Shown: positions 11,368 to 18,924 of the stretch, piece after piece
How positions within the stretch are numbered: position 1 is the first letter of the stretch
How the letters are laid out: each line of letters starts with the position of its first letter
Assembly: GCF_023023025.1 (NCBI RefSeq)
Contig: NZ_CP095481.1
Coordinates: 10,491,001 to 10,555,000 of the forward strand
Reading direction: 5' to 3'
Length of the DNA stretch: 64,000 bases
Source of the DNA: Amycolatopsis sp. WQ 127309
Lineage (GTDB): Bacteria > Actinomycetota > Actinomycetes > Mycobacteriales > Pseudonocardiaceae
The notes under the pieces: model-generated
Told to the model about the DNA's origin: nothing
The model's database searches: none
The model's input: only the letters and a program-made list of their open reading frames with translations
Made by a program: the position numbers and the translations under genes

Positions 11368-11577
11368 ACGCCCCAACCCGAATCTCGCGTCCCCCAGCCC
11401 GCAACTCACGTGATCAGGCCCGTAACCCGCGTGATTCGGGCCGGATCTCGCGTGATCCTGGCCGGAACTCGCGTGATCCTGGCCGGAACTCGCGAGTTCC
11501 GGGTCCAATCACGCGAGTCACGTCTCTGATCACGCGAGTTCCGGGTTCGGTCACGCGGGTGACGGGTTCGGGGTCAG
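11368..11577. repeat. Ten-unit 21-bp repeat array, six direct plus four inverted
   Basis: The interval divides exactly into ten 21-base units. Units 1-6 (11368-11493) follow the pattern GTGATC..GGCCGGAACTCGC; units 5 and 6 (11452-11472, 11473-11493) are identical. At 11493/11494 the orientation flips, and four units read GAGTTCCGGGT..ATCACGC to 11577, reaching the stop codon of fumarylacetoacetase. The array is therefore a large imperfect mirror palindrome. ORFs across it (for example 11287-11508 minus) are only translations of the repeat. Confidence 0.85.
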
Positions 11578-12779
11578 GTGGGGACTACGGTGCCTCGGAC
11601 TTCGCCGAAGCCGATGCGGGTGCCGTTCGGGCCGGGGGCCGTTGCGGTGATCGCGACTTCGTCGCCGTCCTCCAGGAAGGTGCGGGTGGTTCCGTCGGGC
11701 AGCTCGAACGGTTCGCGGCCGCCCCAGGACAGTTCCAGCAGCGAGCCCCGCTGGTGCGGCTCCGGGCCCGTCACCGTGCCCGACGCGTACAGGTCGCCCG
11801 TGCGCAGGCTCGCGCCGTTGACCGTCAGGTGGGCCAGCTGCTGGGCCGCGTTCCAGTACTGCGTGGCGAACGGCGGGCTCGACACCAGGTGGCCGTTGAG
11901 CCGGACCTCCATCGCCAGGTCCAGGCCCCACTTCTCGCTGGTGCGCAGGTACTCGAACGGCTCCGGGTCCTGCGGCGGGCCGGCGACGCGGGCGTGCTCC
12001 AGCGCGTCGAGCGGGACGATCCACGGCGACACCGACGTCGCGAACGACTTGGCCAGGAACGGGCCCAGCGGCTGGTACTCCCACGCCTGCAGGTCGCGGG
12101 CCGACCAGTCGTTGACCAGGCAGACGCCGAACACGTGCGCCGCGAAGTCCTCTGTGGACACCGGAGTGCCCAGCGTGGACGGGACGCCGACGACGAAGCC
12201 CACCTCCGCCTCGATGTCCAGCCGCTGCGACGGGCCGAACGCCGGCGCGTCGGCGTTGCGTGGCTTGCGCTGGCCGTTCGGGCGGACGACCGGGGTGCCC
12301 GACGCGACCACCGTGCCGGCCCGGCCGTGGTAGCCGATCGGCAGGTGCTTCCAGTTCGGCGGCAGCTCGACCGCGTCGGGCCGGAAGATCTTGCCCGCGT
12401 TGAGCGCGTGGTGCTCGCTGGAGTAGAAGTCGACGTAGTCCGCGACCTCGATCGCCAGGTGCGTGGTCACCTCGGTCAGCGGCACCAGGTGCGGCCGCAG
12501 CTGATCGGCGTACCGCGGCTCGGTCAGCCACTCCCGGACGCTCTCGCGCACCTCCCGCCACGTCGCCGGCCCGGCGGCCAGCAGCGGGTTCAGCACCCCG
12601 GACGTCAGCAGCGGCGCGAACGACGCCGCCGTCTCCGCCGCCGCGGCCGTCAGGTCCAGCACCCGGTCGCCGACCGGCACGCCGATCCGGCGCTCGGGCG
12701 CCCCGCCCACGGAGAACACGCCGTAGGGCAGGTTGTCCAAGCCGAACGGCGTGTCGTCGGCGAGTTCGAGCCAGGTCAC
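11574..12779 (-). CDS. fahA: Fumarylacetoacetase
   Basis: A 401-residue fumarylacetoacetate hydrolase, the last step of tyrosine/homogentisate breakdown, giving fumarate and acetoacetate. The N-terminal SH3-like domain begins TWLELADDTPFGLDNLPYGVFS. The C-terminal FAH fold carries DYVDFYSSEHHALNAGKIFRP, with the metal-binding Asp and catalytic His, then IEAEVGFVVG (two metal-ligand glutamates), VNDWSARDLQAWEYQPLGPFLAKSF (metal Asp, catalytic Arg and Lys) and YASGTVTGPEPHQRGSLLEL. The second of two GTGs (12779) was chosen because GAGGAG sits six bases before it and homologues start TWxEL. It begins 2 bases after the DUF885 stop, so the two are probably one operon. No other tyrosine-pathway genes are in the window. 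Confidence 0.95.
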   Translation of the reverse strand: MTWLELADDTPFGLDNLPYGVFSVGGAPERRIGVPVGDRVLDLTAAAAETAASFAPLLTSGVLNPLLAAGPATWREVRESVREWLTEPRYADQLRPHLVPLTEVTTHLAIEVADYVDFYSSEHHALNAGKIFRPDAVELPPNWKHLPIGYHGRAGTVVASGTPVVRPNGQRKPRNADAPAFGPSQRLDIEAEVGFVVGVPSTLGTPVSTEDFAAHVFGVCLVNDWSARDLQAWEYQPLGPFLAKSFATSVSPWIVPLDALEHARVAGPPQDPEPFEYLRTSEKWGLDLAMEVRLNGHLVSSPPFATQYWNAAQQLAHLTVNGASLRTGDLYASGTVTGPEPHQRGSLLELSWGGREPFELPDGTTRTFLEDGDEVAITATAPGPNGTRIGFGEVRGTVVPT

Positions 12780-12781
12780 GG

Positions 12782-15700
12782 TCACTCCTCGTCCCGGGCG
12801 GCGCGCGCGGCCACCCAATCGGCGACGGCGGTGGCGAGCACCGGGAGCGGGAGCGTCCCGTTGCCGAGCACGACGTCGTGGAACTCGCGGATGTCGAACG
12901 CCTCGCCCAGCGCCTGCTCGGCTTCGGCCCGCAGCCGCTGGATCTCCAGCCGCCCGACCATGTACCCGAGCGCCTGGCCCGGGTTCGCGGCGTAGCGGTC
13001 GATCTCCGCCTCGATCTCGAGCTGAGCCATCGGCGTGTGCTCGACGAGGTAGTCGACGGCCTGCTGCCGGCTCCAGCCGAGCGCGTGCAGCCCGGTGTCG
13101 ACGACCAGCCGGCCGGCCCGCATCGAGTCCTGCGTCAGCATGCCCAGCCGCGAGACGTCGTCGGAGTAGAGCCCCATCTCGTCCGCGAGCCGCTCGGCGT
13201 ACAGGCCCCAGCCCTCGGCGTACGCGTTGACGTGCGCGATGATCCGCAGCAGCGGCAGCCCGGTGAGCTCCTGGGCGAGGCACAGCTGGAAGTGGTGCCC
13301 CGGCACGGCTTCGTGGAACGCGATCGCCTCGCTGGTGAACCGCGGGCGCTTCTCGGCCTCGTGGGTGTTGGCGTAGTAGACGCCCGGCCGGGTCCCGTCG
13401 AGCGAAGGCTCCAGGTAGTACGCGATCGTGCCGCTCGTCGCCTCCGCCTCGGGCACCGGCGCGACGCCGCACTGCTGCGCCGGGACCCGCGAGAACCAGT
13501 GCGGCGCCACGGCTTCCGCGCGCGTGATGGCCGTGCGCGCGGCTTCCAGCAGCTCCTCGCCGTCGCGCCAGCGCAGCGCGGGATCGGTCCGGATCCGGTC
13601 GAAGATCTCAGCGAGATCCTTGGTGCCGAACAGCTTCCCGCCCAGCTCGCGGTACTCCCCCGCGAGCCGCTCGATCAGCGCCAGGCCGGTGTCGTGCAGG
13701 TCCTGCGCCGTGCGCTCGGTCGTCGTCTCCGCGCGGATCAGCGCCGCGTAGCGCTCGGCCCCGCCGGGCAGCTGCCCGATGCCCGCGGACGTCTCGGGCC
13801 GGGCCGCCGACGTGACCTCGTCGGCCAGGAACGCGCGGTAGCGCTCGTAGGCCGGGCGGACGACCTCGGCGAGCAGCCGGTCACGCTCGGCCTCGAAGCC
13901 GTCGAGCGCGTACGGCGGTGTCACCTTCAGCGGGTCCTTCGCCGGCGCGCCGAGATACCGCTCGACGTAACCGATCCCGATGCGCACCAGGAACTCCGGC
14001 GGCACGAAGCCCTCGGCGACGGCGGCGCGCTGACGCGTGATCAACGCGTCGAGGTAGTCCCCGATGCCGGCGAGCCGGCTGAGGTAGCCGCGCACCTTCG
14101 GTTCGTCGTCCAGCACCGTCTGCGGCAGGTAGAGCAGCAGTTCCAGGGCGGGCGCGGCGAGCCCGTCGCTGACCGCGACGTCGGACCGGCGGGAGTCGAT
14201 CACGTCGATCTCGGTCTTCGCCTGCGAGACCACGACTTCCCGGGTGATTCGCGTGGCGGCCGGCAGGCCGGTGACGTCGAGTGCCCCGGCCCGCGCGGCG
14301 ATGTCCGCGTACCGGGCCCGGAAGCGGGCCTCGGCCTCGGCGCTCTGGTCGGCCAGCTTGTCGTGGTCGCCGGGCAGGCCGAACACCGACGGGAAGACCG
14401 GCTGCCGCTCGAAGTTCACCGCGACCAGCTCGTCGGCGAGGCTGTCCGGGGTGTCCCCGGCGCTGCCCGCCGCCACCCAGTCCGCGACGACCTTGGCCAG
14501 CGCCGTCAGCGGCAGCATCCCGTGGCCCAGCACGACTTCGTGGAACCCGCGGATGTCGAACCGCTCACCCAGCGCCTGCTCGGCCTCCGCGCGCAGCCGC
14601 TGGATCTCCAGCCGTCCGACCATGTAGCCGAGCGCCTGCCCCGGCCACGCCGTGTAGCGGTCGACCTCGGCTTCGATCTCGAGCCGCGCCATCGGCGTGT
14701 GCTCGACGAGGAAGTCGATCGCCCGCTGCCGGCTCCAGCCCAGCGCGTGCAGCCCGGTGTCGACGACCAGCCGGCCCGCGCGCATCGAGTCCTGCGTCAG
14801 CATGCCGAAGCGCGAGACGTCGTCGGAGTACAGCCCCATCTCGTCCGCGAGCCGCTCGGTGTAGAGCCCCCAGCCCTCGGCGTAGGCGTTGAACATGCCG
14901 ATCCGCCGCAGCAGCGGCAGCTCCCGCAGTTCCTGAGCCAGGCTGAGCTGGAAGTGGTGCCCAGGAACGGCTTCGTGGAACGCGATCGCCTCGCTGGTGA
15001 ACCGCGGGCGCTTGTCCGCCTCGTACGTGTTCGCGTAGTACGTGCCCGGCCGGGACCCGTCGAGCGACGGCTGCAGGTAGTAGGCGATCGTGCCGCTCGC
15101 CGCGTCCGCCTCGGGGACCGGCGCGACCTCGCACTTCTCCGCCGGGACGCGCGAGAACCACTGCGGGGCCACGGCTTCCGCCCGGGCGATGGCGTCGCGG
15201 GCGCCGGCGAGCAGCTCGTCGCCGTCGCGCCAGCGCAGGGCCGGGTCGGTGCGCAGCCGCTCGAAGATCCCGGCGAGGTCGGTGGTGCCGAAGACCTTCC
15301 CGCCCAGCTCGCGGTACTCGCCGGCGAGCTGTTCGATCAGCGCGAGGCCGGTGTCGTGCAGGTCCTGCGCGGTGCGCTCGGTCGTCGTCTCCGCGCGGAT
15401 CATCGCGGCGTACCGCTCGGCGCCGCCCGGGACGTGGCCGATGCCCGGCGCCGTTTCGGGCCGCCCGGCCGGTTCGACCTCGGTGCGCAGGAAGTCGCGG
15501 TAGCGCGCGTACGCCGGGTGGACGACCTCGGCGAGCAGCCGGTCGCGCTCGGCCGCGAAGCCGTCGACCGCCGCGGCCGTGTCCGCCTTCAACGGGTCGC
15601 CGTCCGGCGAACCGAGGTAGCGGTCGATGTACTCGACACCGACCCGGGCGAGGTGGGCCGGCGGCACCAGGCCGTCGGCGAGGCTTTCGCGCTGCCGCTC

Positions 15701-17773
15701 GGTGAGCTCCGCGAGGAACGGCTCGATCGCGGCGAGCCGGGCGAGGTAGCCGCGCGCCTTCTTCTCGTCGTCCAGCTTGTAGAAGGGCAGCTGCATGAGC
15801 AGGCCGAGCGCGGGCGAGGTGAAGCCGGTGCTGACCGCGATGTCGGTCATCCGCGAGGCGAGCCGATCGGCCTCGACCTCGGCGGAGGCGACGATGACCT
15901 CGCGCGTCACGGCCTCTTCCGGCGTCAGCTCCCCGGCCGGCATGGCCCGGGCCCGCGCGGCGAGCGCGGTGTAGGCCGCGCGGAAGTGCTCCTGGCCTGC
16001 CCGGGTCTGGTCGGCGAGCCGGTCGTGGTCCCCGGGCAGGCCGAGCACCGACGGGGCCAGCGGGTCGTGCTCGAACATCAGCGCGACGAACTCGTCGGCC
16101 AGGGCGCCGACGGTGTCGCCGTGCCCGGCCACCCACTCGTCGACGACCGACGCGAGCACCGACAGCGGCAGCGCGCCGCCGGCCAGCACGACGTCGTGGA
16201 ACGCGCGGATGTCGAACCGGGTGCCCAGCCGCCGCTCGGCGGCCGCGCGGATGCCCTGGATCTCCAGCCGCCCCACCATGTACGCCAGGGCCTGGCCCGG
16301 CCACGCGATGTAGCGGTCGACCTCGGCCTCGATCTCGACGCGCGCCATCGGCGTGTGCTCGACCAGGTAGTCGACCGCCTGCTGCCGGCTCCAGCCCAGC
16401 GCGTGCAGCCCGGTGTCGACGACCAGCCGGCCCGCGCGCATCGAGTCGCCGGCGAGCATGCCGAGCCGGGCGACGTCGTCGGAGTAGAGGCCCATCTCGT
16501 CGGCGAGCCGCTCGCTGTAGAGGCCCCAGCCTTCGGTGTAGGCCGTGAAGTCGCCGATGCGCCGCAGCAGCGGCAGATCGGTCAGGCCGAGCGCGGTGCT
16601 GAGCTGGAAGTGGTGGCCGGGCACGGCTTCATGGAACGCCGTCGTCTCCGCCGTGTGCCGGAGCCGCTCGGTGGCCTCGTAGGTGTTCGCGAAGTAGATG
16701 CCCGGCCGGGAGCCGTCGGTCGCCGGGTGGATGTAGTACGCCATGGGCGCGCCGGGCGCGGCGTCCTCCGGGACCGCCTCGACCGTCCACGGCTGCGGCG
16801 GGATCCGGCCGAACCACTTCGGCGCCTCGGCGTCGGCCCGGGTGATGGCCGCGCGGGCCGTCTCCAGCAGCTCTTCGCCGCTGGTCCAGCGCAACGCGGG
16901 GTCGGTGCGCAGGCGCTCGAAGATCTCGGCGAGGTCGCCGGTGCCGAACACCTTGGCGCCCAGCTCGCGGTACTCGACGGCGAGCGCGGCGATGATGTCC
17001 AGGCCGGTCTGGTGCAGCTCGGCCGGAGCGCGGTCGGTGGTGGTGTGGAGCCGGGCCTGCCGCGCGTAGATCTCCTCGCCCCGCGGCAGCCACGACACGC
17101 CGGGCCGGTCGTCCGGGCGGCCGTGCGGCGCCACCTCGGTGACCAGGAACTCGCGGTACCCGGCGAAGGCCGGGCGGACGACGTCGGCGAGCAGCTCGTC
17201 ACGCCGGCGCGCGAACTCGTCGTCCGGCGCGGGCTGGCGGCGCAGCGGGTCGGCGGCCGGGTCGGCGAGGTAGCGGTCCACGTGCGCGACAGCGGACTCG
17301 ACCAGGCGGGCCACCGGCGTCAGGCCGTCGGCGAGGCCCTCGGTGTGCCGCCGCGCGGCCTGGCGCAGGAACTCCGGCACCGCGGCGAGCCGCCCCAGCT
17401 GGGCTTCGGCGGCCGCCCCCGCGGTCACGGACGTCATCGGCAGCGCGGTGAGCAGCATGGCCGCCGGACCGGTGAACATGTCCGTCACGGTGAACTCGGC
17501 CAGCCGGGAGTCGATCGCCGCGATCCGGTCTTCCGCCGACGTGATCAGGACCTCACGGGTGACGCGGTCTTCGGCCGACAGCCCGGCCGGGTCCAGCGCG
17601 CGGGCGCGCTCGGCGAACGCCGCGAGCCGGGTGCGGTGGGCCTGTTCGGCGGCGGCCGTGACGTCCGGCAGCCCGGGCTCCGCCGGGCGCGTGCCCAGCA
17701 GCGCGGGCATCAGCGGATCGGCGGCGTACAGGGCTTCGACGAACTCGTCGGCGAGTTCGGTGACCGCGGTCAT
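12782..17773 (-). CDS. Triple DUF885 metallohydrolase-like protein (1663 aa)
   Basis: One uninterrupted ORF containing three complete DUF885 units in tandem, about residues 1-554, 555-1107 and 1108-1663. Each has the metallopeptidase-like motif FHEAVPGHHFQ (first His at 381, 933 and 1487, that is 552 and 554 residues apart). Each also has the following EGWGLYxERLADEMGLYSDD, DSMRAGRLVVDTGLHALGWS and PGQALxYMVGRLEIQ blocks. Ordinary DUF885 proteins are single units of about 550-600 residues, so this is three enzymes in one chain. Units 2 and 3 resemble each other more than unit 1. No signal peptide or linker is evident. DUF885 members are predicted zinc hydrolases/peptidases of unknown substrate. 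It lies just upstream of fumarylacetoacetase in the same direction. Confidence 0.93.
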   Translation of the reverse strand: MTAVTELADEFVEALYAADPLMPALLGTRPAEPGLPDVTAAAEQAHRTRLAAFAERARALDPAGLSAEDRVTREVLITSAEDRIAAIDSRLAEFTVTDMFTGPAAMLLTALPMTSVTAGAAAEAQLGRLAAVPEFLRQAARRHTEGLADGLTPVARLVESAVAHVDRYLADPAADPLRRQPAPDDEFARRRDELLADVVRPAFAGYREFLVTEVAPHGRPDDRPGVSWLPRGEEIYARQARLHTTTDRAPAELHQTGLDIIAALAVEYRELGAKVFGTGDLAEIFERLRTDPALRWTSGEELLETARAAITRADAEAPKWFGRIPPQPWTVEAVPEDAAPGAPMAYYIHPATDGSRPGIYFANTYEATERLRHTAETTAFHEAVPGHHFQLSTALGLTDLPLLRRIGDFTAYTEGWGLYSERLADEMGLYSDDVARLGMLAGDSMRAGRLVVDTGLHALGWSRQQAVDYLVEHTPMARVEIEAEVDRYIAWPGQALAYMVGRLEIQGIRAAAERRLGTRFDIRAFHDVVLAGGALPLSVLASVVDEWVAGHGDTVGALADEFVALMFEHDPLAPSVLGLPGDHDRLADQTRAGQEHFRAAYTALAARARAMPAGELTPEEAVTREVIVASAEVEADRLASRMTDIAVSTGFTSPALGLLMQLPFYKLDDEKKARGYLARLAAIEPFLAELTERQRESLADGLVPPAHLARVGVEYIDRYLGSPDGDPLKADTAAAVDGFAAERDRLLAEVVHPAYARYRDFLRTEVEPAGRPETAPGIGHVPGGAERYAAMIRAETTTERTAQDLHDTGLALIEQLAGEYRELGGKVFGTTDLAGIFERLRTDPALRWRDGDELLAGARDAIARAEAVAPQWFSRVPAEKCEVAPVPEADAASGTIAYYLQPSLDGSRPGTYYANTYEADKRPRFTSEAIAFHEAVPGHHFQLSLAQELRELPLLRRIGMFNAYAEGWGLYTERLADEMGLYSDDVSRFGMLTQDSMRAGRLVVDTGLHALGWSRQRAIDFLVEHTPMARLEIEAEVDRYTAWPGQALGYMVGRLEIQRLRAEAEQALGERFDIRGFHEVVLGHGMLPLTALAKVVADWVAAGSAGDTPDSLADELVAVNFERQPVFPSVFGLPGDHDKLADQSAEAEARFRARYADIAARAGALDVTGLPAATRITREVVVSQAKTEIDVIDSRRSDVAVSDGLAAPALELLLYLPQTVLDDEPKVRGYLSRLAGIGDYLDALITRQRAAVAEGFVPPEFLVRIGIGYVERYLGAPAKDPLKVTPPYALDGFEAERDRLLAEVVRPAYERYRAFLADEVTSAARPETSAGIGQLPGGAERYAALIRAETTTERTAQDLHDTGLALIERLAGEYRELGGKLFGTKDLAEIFDRIRTDPALRWRDGEELLEAARTAITRAEAVAPHWFSRVPAQQCGVAPVPEAEATSGTIAYYLEPSLDGTRPGVYYANTHEAEKRPRFTSEAIAFHEAVPGHHFQLCLAQELTGLPLLRIIAHVNAYAEGWGLYAERLADEMGLYSDDVSRLGMLTQDSMRAGRLVVDTGLHALGWSRQQAVDYLVEHTPMAQLEIEAEIDRYAANPGQALGYMVGRLEIQRLRAEAEQALGEAFDIREFHDVVLGNGTLPLPVLATAVADWVAARAARDEE

Positions 17774-17907: not shown

Positions 17908-18924
17908 GTGGCTGTGACCGATCCCGTGGATACCCGCCTGCTCGCCGCGCTCGCCGAGCTGGGCAAGGCGGCCGTGCACGAGCTCGCGGCCAAGGTCGGC
18001 ATGGATCCCCGCGAAGTCGCCTACCGGCTGGTCGCGCTGTCCGGCAGCGGGCTGCCGCTGCTCGTCGGCGTCGAAAGCGACCCGAACGGGCTGCGCGCGG
18101 CCATCGCGGGGTCGCCGCCGTCGTGGGCGAACCGGCCACCCGGCTCGCAGCAGTTCCCGGCCCAGGCCCCGCCGTCGCAGCCGGTGCCGATGCCACCGCC
18201 GAACGCGCAAGGGGCGCCCTCGGGCCCGTACAACGTCCAAGGCGCGCCGTCCGGGCCGTACAACGTCCAAGGTGCGCCCTCAGGGCCGTACAACGTCCAA
18301 GGTGCGCCCTCGGGGCCGTACAACGTCCAGGGCACGCCGTCCGGGCGCTACCCCGGGCCGCCGCCCCGGCCACCACAGCAGCAGCAGTTCGCCCCGCCAC
18401 CCCCGGCGCGGCCCGACCCCGTGGTGAGCACGTGGGGCGTGCCGCAGACGGCGTCGTGGGCCCGCGGCGACGAGCCCGCGCGCCCGGCCGGCGCGCCCGG
18501 CGGCAAGAAGGGCCGGCTCGGCGAGGTCATGGAGACCCAGGGCCTGGAGGGCGAGCAGCTGACGGTGCAGCTGCTCGAGGTCCAGGACCCGGCGGACTTC
18601 CTGTTCGGCGCGGCCGGCTACCGCCTGGAGGAGGGCGAGCGCTCGGTGGTCGTCCACACGGAGATCACCAACCGCGGCGCGATCCCGTTCGCGTCCCTGC
18701 CGGACAACTACCTCGAGCTGCTCACCGTCGACGGCAGGACGATCGGCAAGGCCCCGGTGTCGCTGACCTCGCGGCCGCCGCACAAGATCGGCGTCAAACC
18801 GGGCGAAACCCTGGGCGGCCACACGGTGTACGTCCTGCCGGACACGACCCGGGTGGTTTCCGTCCGCTGGAGCCCGCGGCCGGAACCGGACGAGCGCACC
18901 GTGATCTGGTCGATCGAGGACTAG
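17908..18924 (+). CDS. Winged-helix (AsnC-type) protein with decapeptide repeats
   Basis: A 338-residue protein with three parts. Residues about 5-65 are an AsnC-type winged helix ([20 protein letters not shown], then [17 protein letters not shown]). Residues about 65-210 are a Pro/Gly/Gln-rich low-complexity linker with four perfect copies of [10 protein letters not shown] and a fifth partial one. Residues about 225-338 form a beta-rich domain ([46 protein letters not shown]) that resembles Ig-like DUF4352-type domains. There is no signal peptide or membrane helix. The GTG at 17908 gives [12 protein letters not shown], the natural domain start. It is divergent from the DUF885 gene and converges on rluD with overlapping stop codons. 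The function is unknown. Confidence 0.8.
18211..18345 (+). repeat. In-frame 30-bp tandem repeats (4.5 copies)
   Basis: Four successive 30-base units at 18211, 18241, 18271 and 18301 encode [10 protein letters not shown], and a half unit follows. The units differ only at silent third positions, so the peptide is conserved while the DNA has drifted. This suggests selection on the protein repeat. Confidence 0.9.

Follow-up and report, generated by a model that had tools for sequence, protein, structure and literature searches.

A three-unit DUF885 protein of Amycolatopsis, one state in a series of two-, three- and four-unit chains

Three complete DUF885 units in one reading frame

The DNA analysed here, referred to below as the window, is a stretch of 64,000 nucleotides of the genome of Amycolatopsis sp. 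WQ 127309 (contig NZ_CP095481.1, positions 10,491,001 to 10,555,000). Its reverse strand carries, at 12782-17773, a frame with an ATG start and no internal stop, encoding a protein of 1663 residues in which a DUF885 (PF05960) unit occurs three times in succession. A previous reading of the sequence alone, made without database searches (the sequence-only reading), had proposed that three complete enzymes with intact-looking sites are fused here in one chain. The features are listed below with window positions; motif residue numbers were converted from a 1680-residue open frame to the 1663-residue protein.

12782..17773, minus strand: three-unit DUF885 protein, 1663 aa (open reading frame, Pfam PF05960 three times)
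16103..17755, minus strand: unit 1 (type A), residues 7-557 (domain borders; clade A in trees)
14441..16102, minus strand: unit 2 (type B1), residues 558-1111 (domain borders, unit tree, AF2 model)
12785..14440, minus strand: unit 3 (probable type B2), residues 1112-1663 (groups with the third unit of four-unit proteins)
16610..16633, minus strand: HEAVPGHH of unit 1, residues 381-388 (motif conservation)
14954..14977, minus strand: HEAVPGHH of unit 2, residues 933-940 (motif conservation)
13292..13315, minus strand: HEAVPGHH of unit 3, residues 1487-1494 (motif conservation)
16532..16534, minus strand: Glu 414 of EGW in unit 1, candidate third metal ligand (invariant in 298/298 units)

A Pfam scan of the whole chain returned PF05960 alone, in 3 stretches (1536 bits), with DUF885 as the sole family at E 1e-3 and no M2 (ACE) match. 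Where the cut-off is 32.4 bits, units 1, 2 and 3 reached 520.8, 517.9 and 517.3, with every match spanning at least model positions 5-531 of 532, so that every unit is a family member in its own right. The three motif copies were found as described, with the H of HEAVPGHH at 381, 933 and 1487 and the preceding F one residue earlier; the counterparts of Glu 414 in units 2 and 3 are E966 and E1520. It had also been noted that units 2 and 3 are the closer pair, and this holds: identity amounts to 72% between units 3 and 2 and to 57% between units 3 and 1. The nucleotide sequences of the unit copies are 81-86% alike (14-19% different) in the best-conserved 300 nt. Two more DUF885 genes are present elsewhere in the same genome, each of a single unit.

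Tandem repeats are in principle prone to assembly error, but the copies are diverged, the source genome is one contig (11.13 Mb, completeness 100, contamination 2.3) and other genomes have the same layout, so that an artefact of this kind is strongly disfavoured and its chance negligible. A 98%-identical protein of 1662 residues lies on a contig of 11.06 Mb (P0018, whose cluster possibly includes the window's own protein), and the reading frame of the window locus has no stop at the unit borders and no frameshift there, the latter being a finding that the initial proposal had named as refuting it. We conclude that the three-unit chain is real, that it is not a chance feature, and that an assembly artefact is very unlikely.

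Two, three and four units among close relatives

To place this chain, 60 genomes of relatives were scanned with the family model, and a PF05960 match was present in at least 56 of them, counting among the matches listed. One DUF885 locus was then taken from each of 35 same-genus genomes and its frames were read. Two fused units were found at 23 loci and four at 7, while the unfused forms consisted of two separate adjacent genes (3 loci) or three (1 locus); at the last locus (G011) a single unit is cut by the contig end. Three fused units were found at none of these 35 loci. With a query spanning the junction, the uninterrupted full-length matches among 150 family genomes were all from the same genus, among the matches listed, best first. 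Outside the genus, genome G161 matched the query with a TGA between the units (L172); the TGA that splits them is directly followed by an ATG. In G200 (L173), from another genus of the family, three adjacent DUF885 units are present with 4-nt overlaps.

Protein collections were searched as well, scoring only the candidates that share most words. The main search (E up to 1e-100) gave 60 proteins. Amycolatopsis-type clusters account for 53 of them, 17 with four units, 19 with three (including P0018), 16 with two and 1 partial; 39 of the 53 are labelled Amycolatopsis and 14 bear no organism label. Among the other 7 are one three-unit chytrid protein and three two-unit proteins without organism label. 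The near relatives that bear a name, in the best 80 of 579, are from Amycolatopsis. Two further searches, the second with 120 of 600 matches listed and 98 of these new, brought the set P0054-P0173 to 120 proteins, in which 48 have one motif, 68 two, 3 three and 1 four. The sequence-only reading had stated that DUF885 proteins are known only as single units, and had named many database proteins of the triple form as a finding that would refute it. Such proteins exist: 18 other three-unit clusters were found, next to 17 four-unit clusters, 16 two-unit clusters and the 68 two-motif proteins, and the single-unit statement is therefore wrong.

The three-unit form thus belongs to a wider series, in which close relatives carry chains of 2, 3 or 4 units. 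The two- and four-unit Amycolatopsis proteins, which occupy the same chromosomal place and consist of the same unit types, are direct relatives that differ from the window protein by having 2 or 4 units, the range in this DUF885 group being 2-4. Within the limited part of the DUF885 and PF05960 literature that was read, no mention of tandem units and no earlier description of a multi-unit architecture were found; as a family member, the protein is ordinary. Records for Amycolatopsis kentuckyensis disagree, with four units in NRRL B-24129 (L076) and three in P0027, which reflects either a strain difference or a naming problem.

Conserved sites and purifying selection in every unit type

Conservation was examined at 20 conserved positions in 298 units from 106 loci, some of these being one genome fetched twice. 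Eighteen of the 20 positions are invariant in 298/298 units, including H376, E377, H382, E409, R444, D448, H452, R482 and H521; E409 is the Glu that is the candidate third ligand. In HEAVPGHH, the H, E, P, G and H are present in all 298 units; the last H (H383) is kept in 297 and replaced in unit 1 of P0041, which reads HEAVPGHP. Position 488 is G in 253 units and A in 45. The residues taken as marks of DUF885 membership, HE-x4-H(H), EGW and RLVVDTGxH, all conserved columns of the alignment made here, were found in 298/298 units for the positions checked (second H, 297/298). The HExxH motif that characterises clan MA (gluzincin) zinc metallopeptidases (PMC12572635, seen in part) is not what these units carry, as all 298 have HExxxxH.

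Median NG86 omega between four-unit loci was 0.29, 0.18, 0.25 and 0.26 for units 1 to 4 (78 pairs), and between two-unit loci 0.16 and 0.15 (55 pairs). When the window was compared to four-unit loci, values of 0.44, 0.24 and 0.29 were obtained for units 1-3. Each unit type is under purifying selection. With the conserved positions kept, the earlier view that all three sites look intact, without simple decay, is borne out.

An A-B gene pair, its apparent fusion, and multiplication of B

In a tree of 244 units (trees leave out P0015, which has a truncated first unit, and the partial P0037, and identical units were entered once), the Amycolatopsis-type units form two old groups, A for the first unit and B for all later ones. 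Gene conversion between A and B was considered and rejected, trees of residues 1-230 and of residues 330-545 both keeping the groups apart.

In members of this family in which A and B are separate genes, 12 of 13 junctions show an ATGA or GTGA shared by the stop codon of A and a putative start codon of B. A second set gave the same overlap in 20/21 junctions of 20 family genomes; as six of these genomes are the same contigs as named loci, the distinct A/B junctions with a 4-nt overlap amount to 26 of 28. The separate pairs L095, L096, L102, L104 and L118 were left out of this count and of the A+B tree, because they belong to other taxa or, for L102 (Amycolatopsis jejuensis), are a different pair of 41% identity whose genes are separated by 830 nt. 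A stop/start overlap of 4 nt normally couples translation, so A and B are probably made together. In a concatenated A+B1 tree (101 rows), the fused forms all fall into a single clade (SH-aLRT 97) that excludes the separate forms, and the A-B fusion therefore apparently happened once. One result weighs against a single fusion: in the tree of the N-terminal half, the separate-gene A units of G013 and G021 go with a fused clade (support 93).

Fused junctions read WVAGHGDTV..LAxEF, and separate B genes start with MSEV..LADE, so that the linker looks like the former leader of B brought into frame. A similar linker, of GDT type or DT type, is seen at B-B junctions, in keeping with a multiplication of B that followed the fusion. 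Comparison gives the following history. In the family, A and B are usually two adjacent genes with a 4-nt overlap, probably co-produced; the main Amycolatopsis group has joined them into one chain. Within this fused gene B was multiplied, yielding A-B1-B2-B3, and losses in frame then removed single units again. Judging from the trees, G032, with three separate genes, as well as P0035 and P0036, look like further independent three-unit states.

Two kinds of triple

Unit 3 of the window groups with the third, not the fourth, unit of four-unit proteins (SH-aLRT 99). For 14 of the 19 three-unit clusters, the 244-unit tree places the third unit with the fourth of four-unit proteins; P0018-P0020 go with the window, and P0035 and P0036 stand apart. 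The dS values agree with the placement of window unit 3: compared to 13 four-unit loci, medians were 0.298 for unit 1, 0.344 for unit 2, 0.345 for unit 3 against the third unit and 0.453 for unit 3 against the fourth; unit 3 gave 0.433-0.446 when compared with the third-place unit in three other triples. AU tests on which unit the window lost were not decisive (p 0.30 and 0.325). The tail of window unit 3, WVAARAARDEE, resembles that of the fourth unit, which would be expected had a recombination event close to the conserved 3′ end deleted a unit. Most likely, the window protein is A-B1-B2, and most other triples, with B3 in third place, are A-B1-B3.

Gene neighbourhood

Two neighbouring genes bear on the interpretation.

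11574..12785, minus strand: fumarylacetoacetase (FAH) gene (TIGR01266, 444 bits, equivalog cut-off 375.3)
17914..18924, plus strand: divergent AsnC-type HTH gene (PF13404, 29.9 bits, cut-off 27; probable start)

The likely GTG start of FAH, at 12785-12783, overlaps the DUF885 stop; an alternative GTG lies 6 nt on, at 12779-12777. The operon with FAH that the sequence-only reading had described is thus real in the window. It is not a core feature, however: FAH adjoins the units at only 28 of 61 loci (19/19 with three or more units, 9/42 with fewer, at least three genomes being counted twice), and FAH therefore stands outside the core system. At the 35 same-genus loci, it was found downstream of the units in 16, and neighbour matches were more constant for LspA (31), RluD (32), the divergent HTH gene (34), an LLM oxidoreductase (31) and a Ppx/GppA protein (32). 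FAH is a lineage-specific partner. Two repeats were seen at this locus: a series of 30-bp coding repeats lies inside the AsnC-type HTH gene (window 18202-18351), and about five 21-bp repeats lie between the FAH gene and a BrkB-like gene (window 11378-11524).

Fold and probable function

The AF2 model of residues 558-1110 has a pLDDT of 96.2. Its best matches are solved DUF885 structures, so that unit 2 is predicted to have the fold of the solved members, and then, more weakly, M32, M3 and ACE peptidases. By sequence, a profile search of the PDB gave 12 sequences at E up to 10, of which only the three DUF885 entries were convincing, and M32 and M2 were not reached. The solved DUF885 proteins (3o0y, 3iuk, 3u24) are single units of 562-609 residues, whereas the window has three in one chain; a literature search on PDB codes of solved DUF885 structures found nothing relevant. 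M32 carboxypeptidases and M3 oligoendopeptidases are single units with HExxH spacing and show 8-15% identity. The likeness to somatic ACE (M2) lies in the multi-headed architecture, ACE having two heads; the window protein differs by the missing M2 match, by HEx4H in place of HExxH, and by the absence of a signal peptide, as judged by eye. A zinc metallopeptidase has been predicted for another DUF885 protein (PMC12572635, seen in part). In Streptomyces scabies, a single DUF885 gene, SCAB_1391, had its expression assayed beside PchE-like and salicylate synthase genes (PMC11479980, seen in part), a context that is a possible functional lead. In the limited DUF885 literature read, no function for the family was found.

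From fold and motif, the protein is most likely a cytosolic multi-headed zinc oligopeptidase. For the explanation as a whole, a cytosolic multi-headed metallopeptidase formed by A-B fusion and multiplication of B, we estimate a probability of about 0.65. Each unit would be a complete DUF885 fold with its own HEx4H...E site and would hydrolyse short peptides; A and B may form a lasting pair, A being packed on B1 in the model; the units, having diverged, may favour different peptides, and the chain would shorten peptides for amino-acid salvage. Such a role would fit the divergent AsnC-type HTH neighbour and, in the window lineage, FAH of tyrosine breakdown. One protein with three catalytic sites, as first proposed, is consistent with a single chain bearing three intact-looking sites; nothing specific was found for the 'multi-step hydrolase' proposed with it. 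A more elaborate model, which we put forward tentatively and regard as doubtful, is an obligate A-B pair fixed by fusion and extended by B1-B3 to a rod of non-equivalent sites passing peptides along, modular like ACE, with a head number that evolves by in-frame recombination.

Multiplication could also be a matter of dosage only, units of equal specificity providing more active sites per messenger. The chances of this explanation are real, if on the low side. Nearly all checked conserved positions are common to the units, and A differs from B at only 7 sites, one being a gap, when fixation at 90% in both groups is required. On the other hand, the unit types stay distinct across species in whole-unit and half-unit trees, and in 31 four-unit loci B1, B2 and B3 differ pairwise at 27-52 group-specific sites, including a few gaps. 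Together with the intact sites and the low omega, these group-specific sites make up the pattern of units that are diverged and separately kept.

Catalysis by just one or two of the units, with the rest serving as scaffold or allosteric partners in the manner of pseudo-enzyme copies, is unlikely. The comparatively high omega of window unit 1 (0.44), the second H lost from the HH pair of P0041 unit 1, and one chytrid unit without the motif (P0062 unit 2, perhaps a gene-model error) would be in line with it, but the 18 positions intact in all 298 units and a median omega below 0.5 for every unit type argue against it. A little less probable still is a small-molecule hydrolase that is not a peptidase, working for instance with FAH in aromatic breakdown. 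The overlap of the FAH start with the DUF885 stop and the presence of FAH at all 19 loci with three or more units point that way; yet at 19 of the 35 same-genus loci FAH is absent beside the units, the other neighbours being kept at most of them, and after DUF885 itself the fold is nearest to peptidases. Finally, a polyprotein cut into single units after translation has a slim chance, for although the units are separate proteins in other genera and a short GDT-type linker marks the borders, this linker is merely a few residues long with helices on either side.

Tandem units in other organisms

Chytrid and animal DUF885 proteins likewise have 2-4 units in one chain, and tandem units occur in metagenome proteins as well. 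Among the proteins with two motifs are four from chytrids (P0064-P0067), one labelled Steroidobacteraceae, 60 without organism label and three from animals (Solemya velum, Mya arenaria and Armadillidium vulgare, this third protein being flagged as UNVERIFIED_CONTAM at its source); taxonomy was checked for five organism names. The chytrid protein P0062, with three motifs, has about four units, one without the motif. The units of Boothiomyces P0054, three in number and the sole such protein in the 244-unit tree, group together there (support 100), which suggests that they multiplied independently. That chains of this kind turn up in chytrids, in animals and in metagenome proteins suggests a recurring advantage.

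DUF885 is a widespread family, and this locus offers a natural series among close relatives, from overlapping genes to 2, 3 and 4 fused units with intact sites. With it, two general questions can be put to the test: what drives peptidases to acquire several heads, as in ACE, and by what route overlapping genes come to fuse and their domains then to multiply. Fusions of DUF885 to other proteins were also seen, to methylaspartate ammonia-lyase in P0058 and to DUF2891 in P0060; these may be functional hints or gene-call errors.
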